This document shows, in pieces, positions 46,084-52,999 of a stretch of DNA of 60,765 nt; positions within the stretch are counted from its first letter, which is position 1; each line of letters begins with the position of its first letter. The stretch is taken from positions 1 to 60,765 of the IMG/VR virus record IMGVR_UViG_3300030108_005940; one strand, 5' to 3'. Made by a program: the position numbers and the translations under genes. Under the pieces are notes generated by a model. The model had not been told where the DNA came from, made no database searches, and saw only the letters and a list, made by a program, of their open reading frames with translations. Source of the DNA: a virus.

Positions 46084-46947
46084 ATGGCCTTTCCTACAGA
46101 TATAAGATTACCCACCGGTTCAAGATACTATACATTAATTGCGACAAAAAAAACATTTAATTCGAATTATGATATAGTTTGGTCGTTTGAATATAAGTTA
46201 CCTGGATCAGCAATTTCAGCTCCATTTAATACTTACCAAGTTGGGTTTACAACTTTTTTAACTAATTTAATTTCACCGATATCAAGCCTGCCTGGGCAGT
46301 ATCTTGGGGACCAAGATCCGGAGTTTATTTTATCAGCCCATGCTCTAGAGACTGAAGATTCATTAATATTAAAAACCCAAGAAGATTCAACACTTCTTCT
46401 AGAAGGTGGTATTTTAAGTGGTACGTTAGTCAAAGTTGCTTTTGATTCTACGGGGTTATATGCATTAACTGGTAGAGATGATAGACCTGGTGTTAATGAT
46501 AAACAAACTCATAGAAATGCCTTGGTAGTTAGAGATTATGTGCATAATCTTAAAGGTAATGCACCACTATCTACGTTTTCAAGTTCATTTACTAATTTGT
46601 CTACAGATACATACAGAACTTTAAGATTTAGATATGTAAATCTAGGTGAAAAATTACATATAGATTATAGAGAAGCTGATACAACGACATACACGTTATT
46701 AACTACTATAGAATTAGGCTATAGATCAATAAGATTACAAAATTTAGAAAATATATATTGTGGATTTGCTTTTAGTACCCCGATTTCTTCAGCTACTGAT
46801 ACTGTGAGTGCAAATGCATTTTATTTACGTAATTTTAACATAGAAGGTTATGAAGGAGCTGATGTAACAACAGAAACAGTAATTACTCCAAGTTTATCAG
46901 TAAATCCAAATGCTTCGTATACAACCGTTACAAATATAACAGCATAA
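46084..46947 (+). CDS. beta-sandwich, lectin-like structural protein
   Basis: A 287-residue protein, nearly all beta strands. Segments such as NYDIVWSFEYKLPGS, LSGTLVKVAFDSTGLYAL, and YRTLRFRYVNLGEKLHIDY followed by YCGFAFST suggest a concanavalin A-like jelly roll, as in lectins and sugar-binding fibre domains. The end (SVNPNASYTTVTNITA) is a Thr/Asn-rich tail similar in style to the linkers of the next protein. It lies 1 nt before the giant Thr-rich fibre gene, with coupled translation, so the two products may work together. This is inference from fold-like pattern. Confidence 0.5.
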   Translation: MAFPTDIRLPTGSRYYTLIATKKTFNSNYDIVWSFEYKLPGSAISAPFNTYQVGFTTFLTNLISPISSLPGQYLGDQDPEFILSAHALETEDSLILKTQEDSTLLLEGGILSGTLVKVAFDSTGLYALTGRDDRPGVNDKQTHRNALVVRDYVHNLKGNAPLSTFSSSFTNLSTDTYRTLRFRYVNLGEKLHIDYREADTTTYTLLTTIELGYRSIRLQNLENIYCGFAFSTPISSATDTVSANAFYLRNFNIEGYEGADVTTETVITPSLSVNPNASYTTVTNITA

Positions 46948-46948
46948 A

Positions 46949-49900
46949 ATGGCAACGACACCCACACCAACCACGCTTAGACCATCACCGGTTTTTAGGT
47001 TTCAGACGGATGAGCGATTTCAAAATCAATACGGTAATCCGTTTGCTAGTTGGTTTGATTCTTCTAGAAACGAGCCGCCGGGTGTAATACCTACCACTAT
47101 CCCACCAACAACTACACAATCACCGGCTATTAGCTTTAGTGATGTAAGGGTATCTAATATTAATACGTCTGCAATAAACCCTGTTCCAGGAGACGGTGGG
47201 GTAGAAAATTCATATGAAAATGCAACAGGAACTATAACAGTTGAAAGTATAGAGCTTGATCGACCTTTTTCAGAGAAAGTTGAATATGTAATTTATGATG
47301 TAAATGGTAGTAAAGATCAATATGGTGACCCAGAAAATTTTATTTCTGGGGAAGCTGGTGTTGTTGTTAATGATGAAAATAAATCTATAGTACAAATAAA
47401 TGATGAAATAACAGCTATTGCAGATCCGACCAATGAAACTGGGAGCATGAGTGTTGTTGTACAGTTAAGAGATGAAAATTATACAACTTTAACCACAATA
47501 CAAACAGAATCTAACCCAGTATTAATAACTACAACTACTACAACTACTACAACAACCCGTGCACCTGTAATTACTACTACAACAACGACACCGAGTCCAA
47601 CTACATTACCACCCGTTCCTAGAGTAGGTGATGATGATGCAGGTGAAGTTGGAGATACAAATTATATACCGATAACAACTACTACTACAACTACGCGTAT
47701 ACCTGTTTTAAGACCGACAACAACTACAACAACACGTCCACTAATATCTGTAGATGTTGATTCAATAGTAGGAATTGCCACACCAGAACCAACAACAACA
47801 CCTATACCACCACCTTTTGTTGATATAGGAGCTCGACAGCCTGATCCTGTAACATCTACAACTACACGTTCACCAATATATGTAGATGTTGATTCAGTAG
47901 TAAAGATACCACGTTTTACTACAACAACACGTCCATTAATATCTGTAGACGTTGATTCAGTAGTAGGGATTGCTTCTACACGTCCCCCAGTATATGTAGA
48001 TGTTGATTCAGTAGTAGGAATTGCTACTACACGTCCATTAATATCTGTAGACGTTGATTCAGTAGTAGGGATTGCTACTACACGTCCATTAATATCTGTA
48101 GATGTTGATTCAGTAGTAGGGATTGCTACTACAACTACACAACGACCTACTACAACACGAGCTCCTGTTTTACTTACTACTACCACTACCACTACCACAA
48201 CTACACAACGGCCTACTACAACACGAGCACCAGAAGTTACAACTACCACACCAGAACCAACAACAACACCTATACCAAGTTTACGACCACCTTTTGTTGA
48301 TATAGGAGCTCGACAGCCTGATCCTGTAACAATTGCACCAGAAGATAATATTACTGCTACTACAGAAGAGGAATATTTAGGTATAATAGAGGACGAGCCT
48401 TCATTTATTGAAGAAGAAATAGATCCTGGTGAATCACCGTCAATAATTGAAGAAATTCGGGAGGCTGGTGATTTAACAGCTGCACAAGTTACTAACCAAG
48501 AAGATTTAATACGCGCGTTAGAATTTTATTCACAAATAGAAATTGTTGATAGCTTTCAATTAACGCAAACAGTTATTGTACCAGATAATACTGTAATTAC
48601 AGGTTATCTTAATCCCATAATAAGTACAAATACAACTGCATTTTGGGTACAAGGAAGTAATGTCACACTTCAAGGATTTACTATTCAAAAGCTTTTTGGT
48701 CAGGAGACAGGTAGAGGTGTTCTTGTAAATCATCCTTCTTTTAGTACCGGTGAACCTCCTTCAAATATTACAATAAATGCAATAACGTTTCTTGGTGTGG
48801 GTACATCCGGAAGAGATAAATTTGGCGCTATTGCTGTACTTGGTTACAACCGTCTTGGTCTAGCAACTATAAAAAATGTTAAGATAACTAATAATGTTAT
48901 TGATGCAACACCTAATACCGCAATTGACGTTTGGGAGGTAGAAGATCTAGAAATTACTAATAACGTAGTTACAAATACCCAATCAGGAGGAAAAGATAAT
49001 TTTGGAAACGGTATTAGAGGTGATAATATACGTAATACGACAATCTCAGATAATACTTTTACAAATACCGGTCGTATGGGAATAGAGGTGTTAGGAGGTG
49101 GTGCAGGTGGTGTCCCTGATGGCGCGAGGGTATCAAGTTTATATATTCTTAATAATGTAATAGAGCAGTTTGCAGTAAGTAATACCCGGGGATTTAGAGC
49201 AGGTATATCAGTATCTCAGGGAGTCAACGGTGCTTTTGTTGATGGTAATTTTGTTAATGGTGCAAACAATACATGGAATGCAGGTTTGGAGATTGCTCAA
49301 AACTCAAAAAATATTCGATTTTCAAATAATACAGTAAGAGATGTTAAAGATGGTTTATTATGTACAGCGCATTGTGATACGCTCTTTATAACAGATAATG
49401 AGTTTGTTGAAATAAAAAGATATGGTATGCAGCTCTTTCAAAACTGGAATGCAACTATAACAAACAACAATATACTACAATCAGAAGCTTGGAGGGATAC
49501 TTTTTATTCAAATGCCCGGAGTGAAAGCTTTAGAAGAACAAATGGTATTGGATGTGGTATTTTTATACAACAATGTAACGGAATTAAGGTACTAAGCAAT
49601 ATTATAGAAGGTGTATATGAACAAAAGTATGATGATGCAGCCATCATGTTTCAAAGTAACTACCCGACATTAGAGCAAGCTAATAAACTATATTACCCAT
49701 CATCATCCAGTGGAATCGAGCTTCAGCGAGAAATGGTTAAATACGGTTTAGGGGTGGAAAGTTATTGGAATACATTCTACGGTGAACCAAACGTATTAGC
49801 AAATACAAAACCTATACAAAACATTGCAGGTGGTAATACTCTTATTTCCCAAGTTAGCCCCGATCGTTCTAATCCTTTAATTCCTTATGGTGAAAGTCTA

Positions 49901-51421
49901 TTATTTAACCAAAATGCAGCTGCAGTTATATTAATAAACGGTACTGCTGGTACTAAGACTACAACATCTACAGGTGATGTTTCTACAGAAACTGATTCAA
50001 ATGAAAATTTAAATTTACCTGGTGTGGTAACTATCGATAGTTTAGGTGAGTCGGAAGACGGGGGGAGTATATCAATTATAAATGACACCGGGGATGATAT
50101 TAATGTTGAAGATTGGACAAGAGAAAATCAAGAGATTGTAGTAGATGTTGATAAGGTTGTTGTTATAACAACTAATGATGGTGAAACTAAAGACGGTACC
50201 ATAGAATCGATAGATGAAACAATACCATTTACAGGGGTAGATGAGGTAGAAATTGATTTAGATCCTTCTATAAGTATAACTCCCACAACCACATTAGCAC
50301 CTACAACAACTACAACTACAACTACAACTACAACACCAGAACCGACTACGACTCGGGCTCCTGTAATTACACCAGCGCTTACAACTACATTAGCGCCGAC
50401 AGTTACAACTACAACTACAACAACCACACCTACACCGACTACAACAACTACAACTACAACACCAGCACCGACTACAACACCTAAGGTAGGTTCACCGGTA
50501 GTTCAAACTACACAAAGACCTGATGGTGTAATTGAAACGGTAATTACCGGTTATACAACTCCAGTCCCTACAACTACTACAACTACAACAACTACTACAA
50601 CTACACCAGTTTCGCCAACATCTACAACTACAACAACACCTATACCAACTACAACACCTAAGGTAGGTGGACCTAATCCAGGATATACAACGCTTCCTCC
50701 TATCGTAACAACACCGGAACCACTTCGTGTTGGTTGTATGGATCCTGCCGCTATAAATTTCGATCCAACAGCAGAAATTGATGATGGTAGTTGTTTGTTT
50801 ATTAGTCAAACTACACCGGTCGCAACTACACCTTTTGTTGGTGAACCAAAACCTGGTTGTACTAATCCAAATGCTTTAAATTTTGATCCAACAGCTACTT
50901 TTGATGATGGGAGTTGCGTGTTTCCTATACCTCTTATACGTGGTTGTACAAATCCAGATGCATTAAACTTTAATCCACTTGCTATAGTTGATGATGGAAG
51001 TTGTAGGTTTCCTATAGTATTTGAGCCACCAGAAACACCAATACCGTATATACCTGCGAGGTGTAGAAAGCCGCCTAGAATACCACCTGGTGTAACTGAT
51101 ATCGGTGATCCACAGGATACGGATTATATACCACCTGCAGATGCCTTTGATAATATTGAAAATAGATTCGAATTAGAGGAACAAGCTAACGAGCCTATTA
51201 GAAGAATATTCCCTGCACCTATATTATCGCTGCAGCAGCCATTTAATTCAGATGTTAATTTTAATACGAATATAACTAAAAAGGTACCAACTCCATATGG
51301 GTTTACTACTGCACCTCCAACTGCAGATTCACCACTCTTTCAATCTTCTTCGCAAGCCGCGGCTTTAGGTACTACTATATGCCCACCGGAAGAAGAAAAT
51401 TGCAATACACTAGACTATTAA
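46949..51421 (+). CDS. giant Thr/Pro-rich fibre with beta-helix and Cys repeats
   Basis: A 1490-residue protein with mosaic structure. There are Thr/Pro-rich mucin-like stretches (about 190-470 and 1110-1255) with runs such as TTTTTTTPEPTTT. Four 17-residue units of TTRPLISVDVDSVVGIA type lie near residues 326-393. A right-handed parallel beta-helix (about 510-960) has typical ladders such as NITINAITFLG, ITNNVIDATPNTAIDV and GLEIAQNSKNIRFSNN; this fold often binds or cuts polysaccharide. Three Cys repeats near 1262-1352 follow the pattern C-x-[DN]-P-x-A-[IL]-NF-[DN]-P-x-A-x-x-DDGSC, known from surface proteins of Bacteroidetes. It is probably the main side fibre. Two glycosyltransferase genes follow. 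Confidence 0.75.
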   Translation: MATTPTPTTLRPSPVFRFQTDERFQNQYGNPFASWFDSSRNEPPGVIPTTIPPTTTQSPAISFSDVRVSNINTSAINPVPGDGGVENSYENATGTITVESIELDRPFSEKVEYVIYDVNGSKDQYGDPENFISGEAGVVVNDENKSIVQINDEITAIADPTNETGSMSVVVQLRDENYTTLTTIQTESNPVLITTTTTTTTTTRAPVITTTTTTPSPTTLPPVPRVGDDDAGEVGDTNYIPITTTTTTTRIPVLRPTTTTTTRPLISVDVDSIVGIATPEPTTTPIPPPFVDIGARQPDPVTSTTTRSPIYVDVDSVVKIPRFTTTTRPLISVDVDSVVGIASTRPPVYVDVDSVVGIATTRPLISVDVDSVVGIATTRPLISVDVDSVVGIATTTTQRPTTTRAPVLLTTTTTTTTTTQRPTTTRAPEVTTTTPEPTTTPIPSLRPPFVDIGARQPDPVTIAPEDNITATTEEEYLGIIEDEPSFIEEEIDPGESPSIIEEIREAGDLTAAQVTNQEDLIRALEFYSQIEIVDSFQLTQTVIVPDNTVITGYLNPIISTNTTAFWVQGSNVTLQGFTIQKLFGQETGRGVLVNHPSFSTGEPPSNITINAITFLGVGTSGRDKFGAIAVLGYNRLGLATIKNVKITNNVIDATPNTAIDVWEVEDLEITNNVVTNTQSGGKDNFGNGIRGDNIRNTTISDNTFTNTGRMGIEVLGGGAGGVPDGARVSSLYILNNVIEQFAVSNTRGFRAGISVSQGVNGAFVDGNFVNGANNTWNAGLEIAQNSKNIRFSNNTVRDVKDGLLCTAHCDTLFITDNEFVEIKRYGMQLFQNWNATITNNNILQSEAWRDTFYSNARSESFRRTNGIGCGIFIQQCNGIKVLSNIIEGVYEQKYDDAAIMFQSNYPTLEQANKLYYPSSSSGIELQREMVKYGLGVESYWNTFYGEPNVLANTKPIQNIAGGNTLISQVSPDRSNPLIPYGESLLFNQNAAAVILINGTAGTKTTTSTGDVSTETDSNENLNLPGVVTIDSLGESEDGGSISIINDTGDDINVEDWTRENQEIVVDVDKVVVITTNDGETKDGTIESIDETIPFTGVDEVEIDLDPSISITPTTTLAPTTTTTTTTTTTPEPTTTRAPVITPALTTTLAPTVTTTTTTTTPTPTTTTTTTTPAPTTTPKVGSPVVQTTQRPDGVIETVITGYTTPVPTTTTTTTTTTTTPVSPTSTTTTTPIPTTTPKVGGPNPGYTTLPPIVTTPEPLRVGCMDPAAINFDPTAEIDDGSCLFISQTTPVATTPFVGEPKPGCTNPNALNFDPTATFDDGSCVFPIPLIRGCTNPDALNFNPLAIVDDGSCRFPIVFEPPETPIPYIPARCRKPPRIPPGVTDIGDPQDTDYIPPADAFDNIENRFELEEQANEPIRRIFPAPILSLQQPFNSDVNFNTNITKKVPTPYGFTTAPPTADSPLFQSSSQAAALGTTICPPEEENCNTLDY
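47527..48265 (+). repeat. Thr-codon low-complexity tract 1 with nested repeats
   Basis: Long runs of ACA/ACT/ACC triplets coding for Thr, interrupted by tandem 51-bp units (about 47924-48128, four copies) whose last two copies differ by a single base in most of their length. Such tracts can change length by slippage or recombination. Confidence 0.85.
47810..48330 (+). repeat. 44-bp exact direct repeat pair
   Basis: Identical 44-bp copies at 47810-47853 and 48287-48330, coding for PPFVDIGARQPDPVT. Each follows a similar segment coding for PEPTTTPIP. Recombination between them would delete 477 bp in frame (159 codons). Confidence 0.9.
50280..50665 (+). repeat. Thr-codon low-complexity tract 2
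   Basis: A second run of ACA/ACT/ACC triplets with CCA/CCG, coding for TTTTTT and TPEPTTT-type segments in the distal part of the giant fibre gene, between the beta-helix and the Cys repeats. Confidence 0.85.
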
Positions 51422-51434
51422 TAATTATTTGTAA

Positions 51435-52265
51435 GTGAAAAAACTTACTATTGGAACATGTGTATATGATGATTTTGATGGCTTGTATTTTACAATACAA
51501 TCTATTAGACTTCAAAATCCGGAAATTTTAAATAGATTAGAATTTGTTGTTATTAACAATAACCCCTCATCTGACGAGGGTAAAGAGATACGTAGTTTTT
51601 TAGAATTAATAGATGAACCTGTTACATATTTAGAATTTTCAAAATATAATTCTCCATTTTTAAAAGGTAAAATATTTGACCTAGCTGAAACAGAATATGT
51701 TCTAGTATTAGATTCTCATGTACTCTTAGAGCCAGGTACTTTGAAAAAATTATTAGATTTTTACGATGAAAATAAAGATGACGGTAACTTACTACAGGGT
51801 CCTTTATTATATGATAACTTAGAAAATATAAGTACACATTTCGATTTATCTAAATGGGGTAGTGATATGTGGGGTGAATGGTCTGTAGACAAGAGGGGGT
51901 ATATTAAAAATGGTGAGCCATTTGAAATACCTGCTCAAGGAATGGGATTATTTTCATGCAGACGGGATAGTTGGTTAGGGTTTAATGAAAAATTTAGAGG
52001 TTTTGGTGGTGAAGAAGGATATATACACTGTAAGTATAGAAATGCAGGCAAAAAAGTATTATGTTTACCGTTTTTAAGATGGTTACATCGATTTAATAGA
52101 CCCGGTGGGCCGAAATTTAATCCAAGTTTACATGATAGATTTCGAAATTACATGATAGGTTTTCAAGAAATAGGAAGAGATACTAATGAAATTGTTAGTC
52201 GGTTTCAAGGAAGAATACCAGAAGAGTTTATAGACAGTGTTAAAAAAGAGTTAAATCTTTCATGA
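51435..52265 (+). CDS. GT-A glycosyltransferase with polypeptide-GalNAc-transferase-like motifs
   Basis: A 276-residue protein starting at GTG. It has the GT-A start LTIGTCVYDDFDGLYFTIQS, then the metal motif EYVLVLDSHVLLEPG with D93-x-H95. This D-x-H form, LDSH, is characteristic of polypeptide GalNAc-transferases (family GT27) instead of the usual DxD. The second half has GMGLFSCRRDSWLGFNEKFR followed by GFGGEEGY (189-196), as in the galactosyltransferase-type motif of GT27/GT7 enzymes, and then WLHRFNR. No membrane segment is present. It follows the Thr-rich fibre gene by 14 nt and overlaps the next glycosyltransferase (ATGA). The likely acceptor is a virion protein; this is inference. Confidence 0.72.
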   Translation: MKKLTIGTCVYDDFDGLYFTIQSIRLQNPEILNRLEFVVINNNPSSDEGKEIRSFLELIDEPVTYLEFSKYNSPFLKGKIFDLAETEYVLVLDSHVLLEPGTLKKLLDFYDENKDDGNLLQGPLLYDNLENISTHFDLSKWGSDMWGEWSVDKRGYIKNGEPFEIPAQGMGLFSCRRDSWLGFNEKFRGFGGEEGYIHCKYRNAGKKVLCLPFLRWLHRFNRPGGPKFNPSLHDRFRNYMIGFQEIGRDTNEIVSRFQGRIPEEFIDSVKKELNLS

Positions 52266-52999
52266 AGCTACTATGTATAACCCCTACATATGGTAGACCT
52301 ATAGAGTTATTACAAAATAGTTTAGCTTGTTTTTACTCTCAAACATATACTAATGCTGTGCAGATATATGTTGATGATACGTTTAACGGTAAAACAATTA
52401 GAGGTGATGGATTTGTGTTTATGCAAACAAGTATACGCTCATCTAGTCTATCTATAAAGCATGATATAGCTGTAGAATATGGTGAAAAGGAGTTTGGTAA
52501 TGTTGACGGTATTGTTATATGGGATGATGATGATATATATTTACCTAACCATCTAGAACATGTAGCTAATACACTACAGGAAGAAAATTCTTATTCATAT
52601 AATTCTAAAATATATGTAGCTTCAGATAATATTAATAAACCACATATCGAAAAAACTGGAAACAGTCGATTTCATGGAAGTTATGGTATATCTAAAGGTC
52701 TTTATAATAAAACTAGATGGGGACATACTCTTCGAATGGATTTTGATCTGCAGATGATTAATCGTTTAAAAACTACTGGTGTAGGTAAAGATCGATCTAA
52801 TCTCGGTGCTCCTACATATGTATATAGATGGCACGGGTCACAAGCGCATCATTGCTCAGGCGTTGCAAAAGGACCGGATGATAAAGATTGGTACTTTAAA
52901 ACACCTATAAAGCGAAACGGCTCCATTAATAATTTAAAAGCTATATATGATGATAATACTTTAAATATTAAAGATTACCTAACGAAGCTTCAACCTTAA
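52262..52999 (+). CDS. GT-A glycosyltransferase, family 2-like
   Basis: A 245-residue protein with the GT2 start MKLLCITPTYGRPIELLQNS and the metal-binding acidic cluster GIVIWDDDDIYLPNHLEH (DDDD at 88-91). The GT2 catalytic C-terminal part is short, with TYVYRWHGSQAHHCSGVAK. It is probably cytoplasmic and soluble. It overlaps the previous glycosyltransferase by 4 nt, so the two are made together and may act in sequence on one acceptor. The 3' end overlaps the convergent small gene by 32 nt. Confidence 0.75.
   Translation: MKLLCITPTYGRPIELLQNSLACFYSQTYTNAVQIYVDDTFNGKTIRGDGFVFMQTSIRSSSLSIKHDIAVEYGEKEFGNVDGIVIWDDDDIYLPNHLEHVANTLQEENSYSYNSKIYVASDNINKPHIEKTGNSRFHGSYGISKGLYNKTRWGHTLRMDFDLQMINRLKTTGVGKDRSNLGAPTYVYRWHGSQAHHCSGVAKGPDDKDWYFKTPIKRNGSINNLKAIYDDNTLNIKDYLTKLQP

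Follow-up and report, generated by a model that had tools for sequence, protein, structure and literature searches.

A GT27-like glycosyltransferase encoded beside a mucin-like phage fibre: a candidate system for O-glycosylation of threonine-rich stalks

Mucin-type glycosylation has been described in eukaryotes, and glycosylation of phage virion proteins in few cases. A phage locus in which the gene for a threonine-rich fibre is directly followed by a glycosyltransferase (GT) gene raises the question of whether a phage might glycosylate its own fibre. The locus lies in the IMG/VR virus record IMGVR_UViG_3300030108_005940. The window analysed here is the stretch of 60,765 nucleotides (nt) from position 1 to 60,765, which belongs to a virus record of 154,604 bases. 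The initial annotation proposed such a system at positions 46,949 to 52,999, composed of the fibre, an N-acetylgalactosamine (GalNAc)-transferase-like enzyme (GT1) and a second GT; open reading frame (ORF) calls showed that its coordinates for the three genes are right. The GT1 gene has a GTG start, and 13 nt separate it from the fibre stop. Comparison with relatives suggests that a large group of uncultured water-borne phages probably coat their own fibres with sugar by a mucin-like system. The features of the fibre and GT1 genes that bear on this question are the following.

46949-51421, plus strand: ORF of the mucin-like fibre, 1490 amino acids (aa), the likely acceptor; T50 (threonines per 50-residue window) of 33, the genome maximum; contains a beta-helix.
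47516-48358, plus strand: Thr/Pro tract 1 of the fibre (residues 190-470), 28% Thr, mixed-codon Thr runs of up to 10.
50276-50728, plus strand: Thr/Pro tract 2 of the fibre (residues 1110-1260), 49% Thr, mixed-codon Thr runs of up to 12.
51435-52265, plus strand: GT1, a GT27-like DxH glycosyltransferase of 276 aa, the proposed polypeptide-Thr O-glycosyltransferase (PF00535, structure model and Foldseek).
51711-51719, plus strand: D93-S94-H95, the DxH metal motif of GT1; D and H invariant in relatives.
52005-52016, plus strand: G191-G192-E193-E194 motif of GT1 (GGEN in GT27); invariant, and aligned by hhalign with the GGEN of GalNAc-T2.
52086-52088, plus strand: H218 of GT1, the predicted counterpart of the third GT27 metal ligand (C-terminal His); invariant, and in near-register with the His of VGHVF in GalNAc-T2.

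The GT1 protein matched PF00535 of the GT2 superfamily (1.3e-9, 38.7 bits; the curated cut-off is 23.3). The motifs LDSH (92-95, with D93 and H95) and GGEEG (191-195) were found at the positions originally given for them. Residues D93, H95, G191-G192-E193-E194, W216 and H218 are invariant in 48 viral relatives and in 44 viral and bacterial relatives (two alignments). No match to PF11397, which we take to be the Pfam GlcNAc (N-acetylglucosamine) family of GT60, was found for GT1 within E<1. The AlphaFold (AF2) model of GT1 has a predicted local distance difference test (pLDDT) score of 93.6. In a Foldseek comparison of this model with the PDB, all 50 matches listed are polypeptide GalNAc-transferases (GT27), and the best non-GT27 match ranks below these 50. 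The best match is 6nqt_E (1.7e-14); the others include human T2, T4, T7, T10 and T12, mouse T1, fly PGANT9 and Toxoplasma T3, with TMq up to 0.74. The metal in Toxoplasma GalNAc-T3 is held by Asp276, His278 and His414 (PMC11074326), and D93/H95/H218 of GT1 correspond to these Mn ligands (D276/H278/H414). The change from DxD to DxH was reported in GT27 and GT60, both of which O-glycosylate Ser/Thr of polypeptides (GT-A survey, PMC7185993). The hhalign comparison of GT1 with the PDB sequence of GalNAc-T2 (199 columns; probability 3.8%, E 0.011) placed the DSH and GGE motifs in register, with RWLHRF of GT1 facing SRVGHVF. In BFVD, the viral proteins that match the GT1 fold comparatively well include phage proteins named 'Glycosyltransferase, GlcNAc' (A0A6J5MV95, A0A6J5NK11, A0A6J7X0M8 and A0A6J5R1Z4), which are perhaps GT60-like.

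The long Thr tracts of the fibre are real, as first reported. The fibre has 33 Thr in a 50-residue window; elsewhere in the 154.6-kb genome, the ORFs found reach at most 13. The runs of 5-12 Thr mix the codons ACA, ACT, ACC and ACG in a ratio close to that of other structural genes, which indicates that the tract is kept as protein and not as a single slipping DNA triplet. Repeats of the type GCxxPxAxNFDPxAxxDDGSCxF were also found between the Thr tracts, three in the C-terminal third of this fibre and more in the fibre of one relative (L027).

GT1 relatives are encoded by at least 321 viral contigs, from which 80 loci were read; sequence upstream of the gene was available for 77 of these. The GT1 start lies within 60 nt of the end of a Thr-rich protein in 65 of the 77 loci, whereas 18 of 1282 other ORFs (at least 100 aa) are Thr-rich; the p-value for this linkage in viruses is inflated by the relatedness of the loci. 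Five of the twelve exceptions could be accounted for: the locus is cut in L004; the protein is split in L027, probably by a frameshift; it is adjacent on the opposite strand in L073 and downstream in L075; and it is slightly below the Thr-rich threshold in L080. The shortest proteins upstream of GT1 are T-, S- and P-rich mini-proteins of 104 aa, and the longest are fibres of 2431 aa. Their heads are unrelated, including beta-helix, trypsin-like, coiled-coil and several unknown modules; the common parts are a Thr/Pro/Ser stalk and a short C-terminal tag. The trypsin-like segments, with GDSGSP or GDSSSP in the variable middle of two fibres (L002:2904-8987 and L009:5453-8983), have no Pfam match, and their motifs suggest protease-like heads on some fibres.

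Bacterial homologues showed a similar association. A single scan of GTDB genomes revealed 57 GT1 homologues (37-55% identity, mostly full length), and the viral and bacterial sequences separate on the tree with support of 100/99. Several of the bacterial homologues are fusion proteins that contain an HprK-related kinase A domain and, in some cases, GT25. Short proteins nearby carry a twin-arginine-type (TAT) leader, a KWTKPVVxxVxxPAHA-like motif and a Thr/Pro tract. There are 29 Thr-rich ORFs in the 250 kb within 2.5 kb of the bacterial homologues, compared with one in 396 kb farther out, a 46-fold enrichment. A Thr-rich ORF lies within about 1.5 kb of 21 of the 57 homologues and of none of 30 GT2-family genes in the same genomes, two of these controls being GT1 fusions themselves, which biases the control slightly. 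The bacterial partners and the phage fibres have nothing obvious in common except the Thr tract; therefore, the tract is the best candidate for the substrate. The claim that Thr tracts and enzyme occur together thus holds across viral relatives and unrelated bacterial neighbourhoods; it fails in two to three virus lineages, which keep GT1 without a Thr tract in the available fragment. A recurrent bacterial cassette (L090, L093, L098, L110, L112, L117, L121, L127, L129 and L140) consists of a TAT-leader Thr mini-protein, an HprK-related-kinase::GT1 fusion and a PqqD-like protein; no description of it was found in the open-access literature. In another GTDB locus (L122, labelled Marinimicrobia), a terminase-like ORF immediately precedes the GT1 homologue, and the contig probably comes from a phage and was placed in a bacterial bin.

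Polypeptide GalNAc-transferases prefer neutral, Pro-rich stretches. A scan anchored on the upstream lectin-like gene (described below) instead of GT1 revealed viruses without GT1, including a 171-kb record, which keep the orthologous fibre and its tag. The Thr-rich parts of these fibres are acidic, with a median of 18% D/E against 4% beside GT1 (Mann-Whitney p 2e-5), and poor in proline, with 0% against 16% (p 2e-4); because six of the seven GT1-less viruses form one clade nested among GT1 carriers, this contrast amounts to one or two independent events and lends support without being decisive.

Taken with the predicted fold and metal site, these associations make it likely that GT1 is a phage-encoded protein O-glycosyltransferase acting on the Thr stalks. 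During virion production in the infected cell, GT1 would bind a nucleotide-sugar donor, probably a uridine diphosphate (UDP)-N-acetylhexosamine, through a metal on D93, H95 and H218. The sugar would be moved to many Thr (and Ser) hydroxyls in the Thr/Pro-rich stalks of the co-expressed, tagged upstream proteins, and optional second enzymes (GT2-, GT6- or galactosyltransferase-type) might extend or cap it. The product would be a stiff, densely glycosylated, protease-resistant, mucin-like virion fibre, encoded beside a lectin-like tail protein. The coated stalk would keep the receptor-binding head away from the virion, and might mask the virion or serve as a ligand of the lectin-like protein. 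That the sugar is alpha-GalNAc is a tentative proposal, with the chances somewhat against it.

Besides the close relatedness of most GT1-less viruses, several observations weigh against this function or against the kinship with GT27. An hmmsearch of PDB sequences with the GT1 profile returned GT2 enzymes and no GT27 at E<10, and GT27 was likewise not reached by single-sequence searches of PDB sequences. The profile matches are GT2-type enzymes such as chondroitin synthase, and the hhalign probability with GalNAc-T2 is weak. All aligned relatives have GGEE and not the GGEN of GT27. With E194 in place of this Asn, the sugar linkage could be made by inversion. A Pfam scan found no ricin-type lectin domain in GT1, whose 276 aa make up a catalytic domain only. 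GT1 is thus GT27-like in its predicted fold and metal site, while the sequence profiles reach GT2, and it is not a demonstrated member of GT27. The enzyme type named in the initial annotation therefore stands as far as the predicted fold (closest to GT27 among the structures listed), the DxH motif and a third His; GT1 lacks the GGEN motif and a sequence-profile match to GT27. The annotation had also counted relatives with the enzymes and no Thr tracts against itself, and such relatives do occur in part: no Thr tract is present in the available fragment of the other seven exceptions (L032-L037 and L040), nor in the available fragments of the L032-L037 and L040/L176/L183-186 lineages and of L193/L201. 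Conversely, Thr-rich, though acidic, tracts persist in some GT1-less relatives, and the length of Thr runs did not correlate with the presence of GT1 in the lectin-anchored sample (p 0.26).

The alternative that survives best is a sub-case of Thr-stalk glycosylation, in which the sugar added by GT1 is a different one (GlcNAc, glucose, or an amino or deoxy sugar that the phage makes itself) and the transfer may be inverting; we place its chances only a little short of even. The GGEE motif and the GT2-type nature of the closest sequence profiles fit this alternative, as do the phage's own sugar-nucleotide genes at 91.8-97.1 kb (deoxythymidine diphosphate (dTDP)-sugar isomerase, nicotinamide adenine dinucleotide (NAD)-dependent epimerase and DegT aminotransferase); however, these genes (92-97 kb) have no link to GT1, and the 50 fold matches listed are all retaining GalNAc enzymes. 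It seems unlikely that GT1 modifies another virion protein, such as the lectin-like protein or a tail fibre, with the Thr tracts as mere flexible linkers. The lectin-like gene does adjoin GT1 in several lineages without a Thr tract, and the tag and fibre persist without GT1; but the bacterial homologues adjoin Thr-tract proteins of a very different kind, and the stalk composition is shifted where GT1 is absent. Modification of DNA or of the host serotype is a reported activity of phage GTs (PMC12619734), and a role of GT1 on host surface polysaccharide or phage DNA, with the fibre adjacency as synteny only, would suit its chondroitin synthase-like GT2-type profile matches. Such a role is improbable given the GT27-like fold and DxH site, the position of the gene inside a fibre cassette and the enrichment of Thr-tract proteins beside the bacterial homologues. 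Although long structural proteins often contain low-complexity repeats, it is hardly credible that the Thr tracts are functionless microsatellite expansions, since their codons are mixed at the genome's own ratio and the stalks recur beside GT1 in non-homologous proteins with a conserved C-terminal tag.

The preferred function, glycosylation of the Thr stalks by GT1, leaves the tag, the fibre head and the neighbouring genes to be considered. Four features were absent from the initial annotation: the third metal ligand H218, the fibre beta-helix, the C-terminal tag and the lectin-like gene at 46084-46947. Together with the second GT, the latter three complete the locus:

48866-49621, plus strand: right-handed beta-helix of the fibre (residues 640-891; PF13229 2.2e-10, PF05048 7e-7).
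51380-51421, plus strand: C-terminal tag of the fibre, CPPEEENCNTLDY-stop, of the class C-x(1-7)-C-[NKRT]-x-L-x-[FY]-end; pattern in 80 of 3045 viral-locus ORFs.
46084-46947, plus strand: predicted legume-lectin-like (L-type lectin fold) protein, 287 aa, directly upstream of the fibre.
52262-52999, plus strand: second GT (GT2-type, 245 aa), the proposed chain-extending enzyme in a variable slot; PF00535 at 7.6e-5, just below the cut-off.

All 80 ORFs with the tag at their very C-terminus are upstream of GT1 on the same strand; because the pattern was derived from GT1-linked proteins, its presence there is by construction, whereas its absence elsewhere is not. Nearly all of them are Thr-rich, the few low scorers being cut or split pieces, and some loci have two or three tag-bearing proteins in tandem. 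A docking signal for GT1 was considered and is disfavoured, since the tag is retained in GT1-less relatives; for the same reason it is more likely a signal for virion assembly or anchoring. In one virus lineage (L180, L190, L191, L193 and L201), either a small protein or GT1 itself has a C-terminal ending of the CxCGK/CNCRS type, which may serve as an alternative tag.

The lectin-like protein has no Pfam match. Its AF2 model (pLDDT 73.9) suggests a lectin-like fold: all 50 PDB matches listed are legume or L-type lectins (E about 1e-5, template modelling score 0.3-0.4). Of the GT1 loci, 54 extend more than 3.5 kb upstream, and 48 of these have a homologue of the gene. The second GT overlaps GT1 by 4 nt and has close homologues only in L017 and L028 among the viral loci. 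The slot after GT1 is variable. It contains a GT2-type gene in the window, L017 and L028, GT6 (PF03414, about 1e-22) in L007 and L011, a galactosyltransferase (Galactosyl_T, 4e-10) in L027, a GT/methyltransferase fusion in L038 and a polysialyltransferase-like protein in L031 (2.7e-4, below its cut-off); in most other loci it is empty. This variability would suit extension or capping of the sugar under shifting selection, with the second enzyme of the window as a putative extender. A sugar-nucleotide cluster at 90296-97134 of the same genome (L147), encoding a GT2, the dTDP-sugar isomerase, the NAD-dependent epimerase and the DegT aminotransferase, may supply the donor sugar.

Comparison with known systems showed both similarities and differences. 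The GT27 mucin-type system of animals and apicomplexans and GT1 have in common the GT-A fold, the metal site of DxH and a C-terminal His, the GGE motif and a Thr/Pro-rich acceptor. GT1 differs in its lack of sequence-level membership, in GGEE for GGEN and in the missing ricin-type lectin domain; moreover, no secretory pathway is involved, and the phage or bacterial gene adjoins the acceptor gene. GT60 enzymes (Skp1/T. cruzi-type polypeptide GlcNAc-transferases) are also similar in the DxH motif and in a protein acceptor (PMC7185993), the latter being a proposal for GT1; the lack of a match to the Pfam GlcNAc family sets GT1 apart from them. In mycobacteriophages (Freeman et al. 2023, as cited in PMC12619734), it is the capsid and tail-tube subunits that carry glycans, at their C-termini. 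The present system is similar in its virion-protein glycans, here predicted from genes; it is unlike the mycobacteriophages in the Thr/Pro-tract fibre, the DxH GT27-like enzyme and the unrelated uncultured phage group. The ABO-like GT6 enzymes have their counterpart in the second slot of L007 and L011, whereas the window has a GT2-type enzyme there.

No earlier report of phage mucin-like proteins paired with a GT27-like enzyme was found in the open-access literature. A compact module of acceptor and enzyme in a virus group of hundreds would be a cytoplasmic system that needs no secretory pathway. It would account for the recurring Thr/Pro tracts of environmental phage fibres, provide a small soluble enzyme for the production of mucin-like glycoproteins in E. 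coli, and serve as an outgroup for tracing how GT27 and GT60 arose. A broader proposal, to which we give even chances, is that prokaryotes and viruses have, in these genes, their own counterpart of mucin-type O-glycosylation, with a new GT-A family that has the GT27/GT60 metal site and glycosylates Thr/Pro stalks in the cytoplasm. The phage form would be a module of lectin-like protein, mucin, transferase and extension enzyme, with the C-terminal tag on the mucins; the bacterial form would combine TAT-exported Thr-tract mini-proteins with HprK-kinase fusions. If true, this would bear on the origin of eukaryotic mucin glycosylation.

GT1 lies in the structural region of the genome, where genes for tail, collar and fibre proteins precede it. 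The terminase of the record has a distant T4-like phage match, with 39% identity to that of Sinorhizobium phage phiM9. PHROGs has no family for the fibre, the lectin-like protein, GT1 or the second GT. GT1 had no match among INPHARED phage records. When 50,697 phage records were searched by tblastn, neither of the two GTs returned a match, nor did the lectin-like protein; thus, neither a cultured host nor an annotated relative is known. The region 140790-145924 of the same genome (L150:4790-9921) contains the curli secretion genes CsgF (PF10614, 7e-18) and CsgG (PF03783, 5e-50). It also has an ORF with curlin-like repeats and encodes a CHASE2-cyclase protein (PF05226, PF00211); for a phage, this is an unusual gene set.

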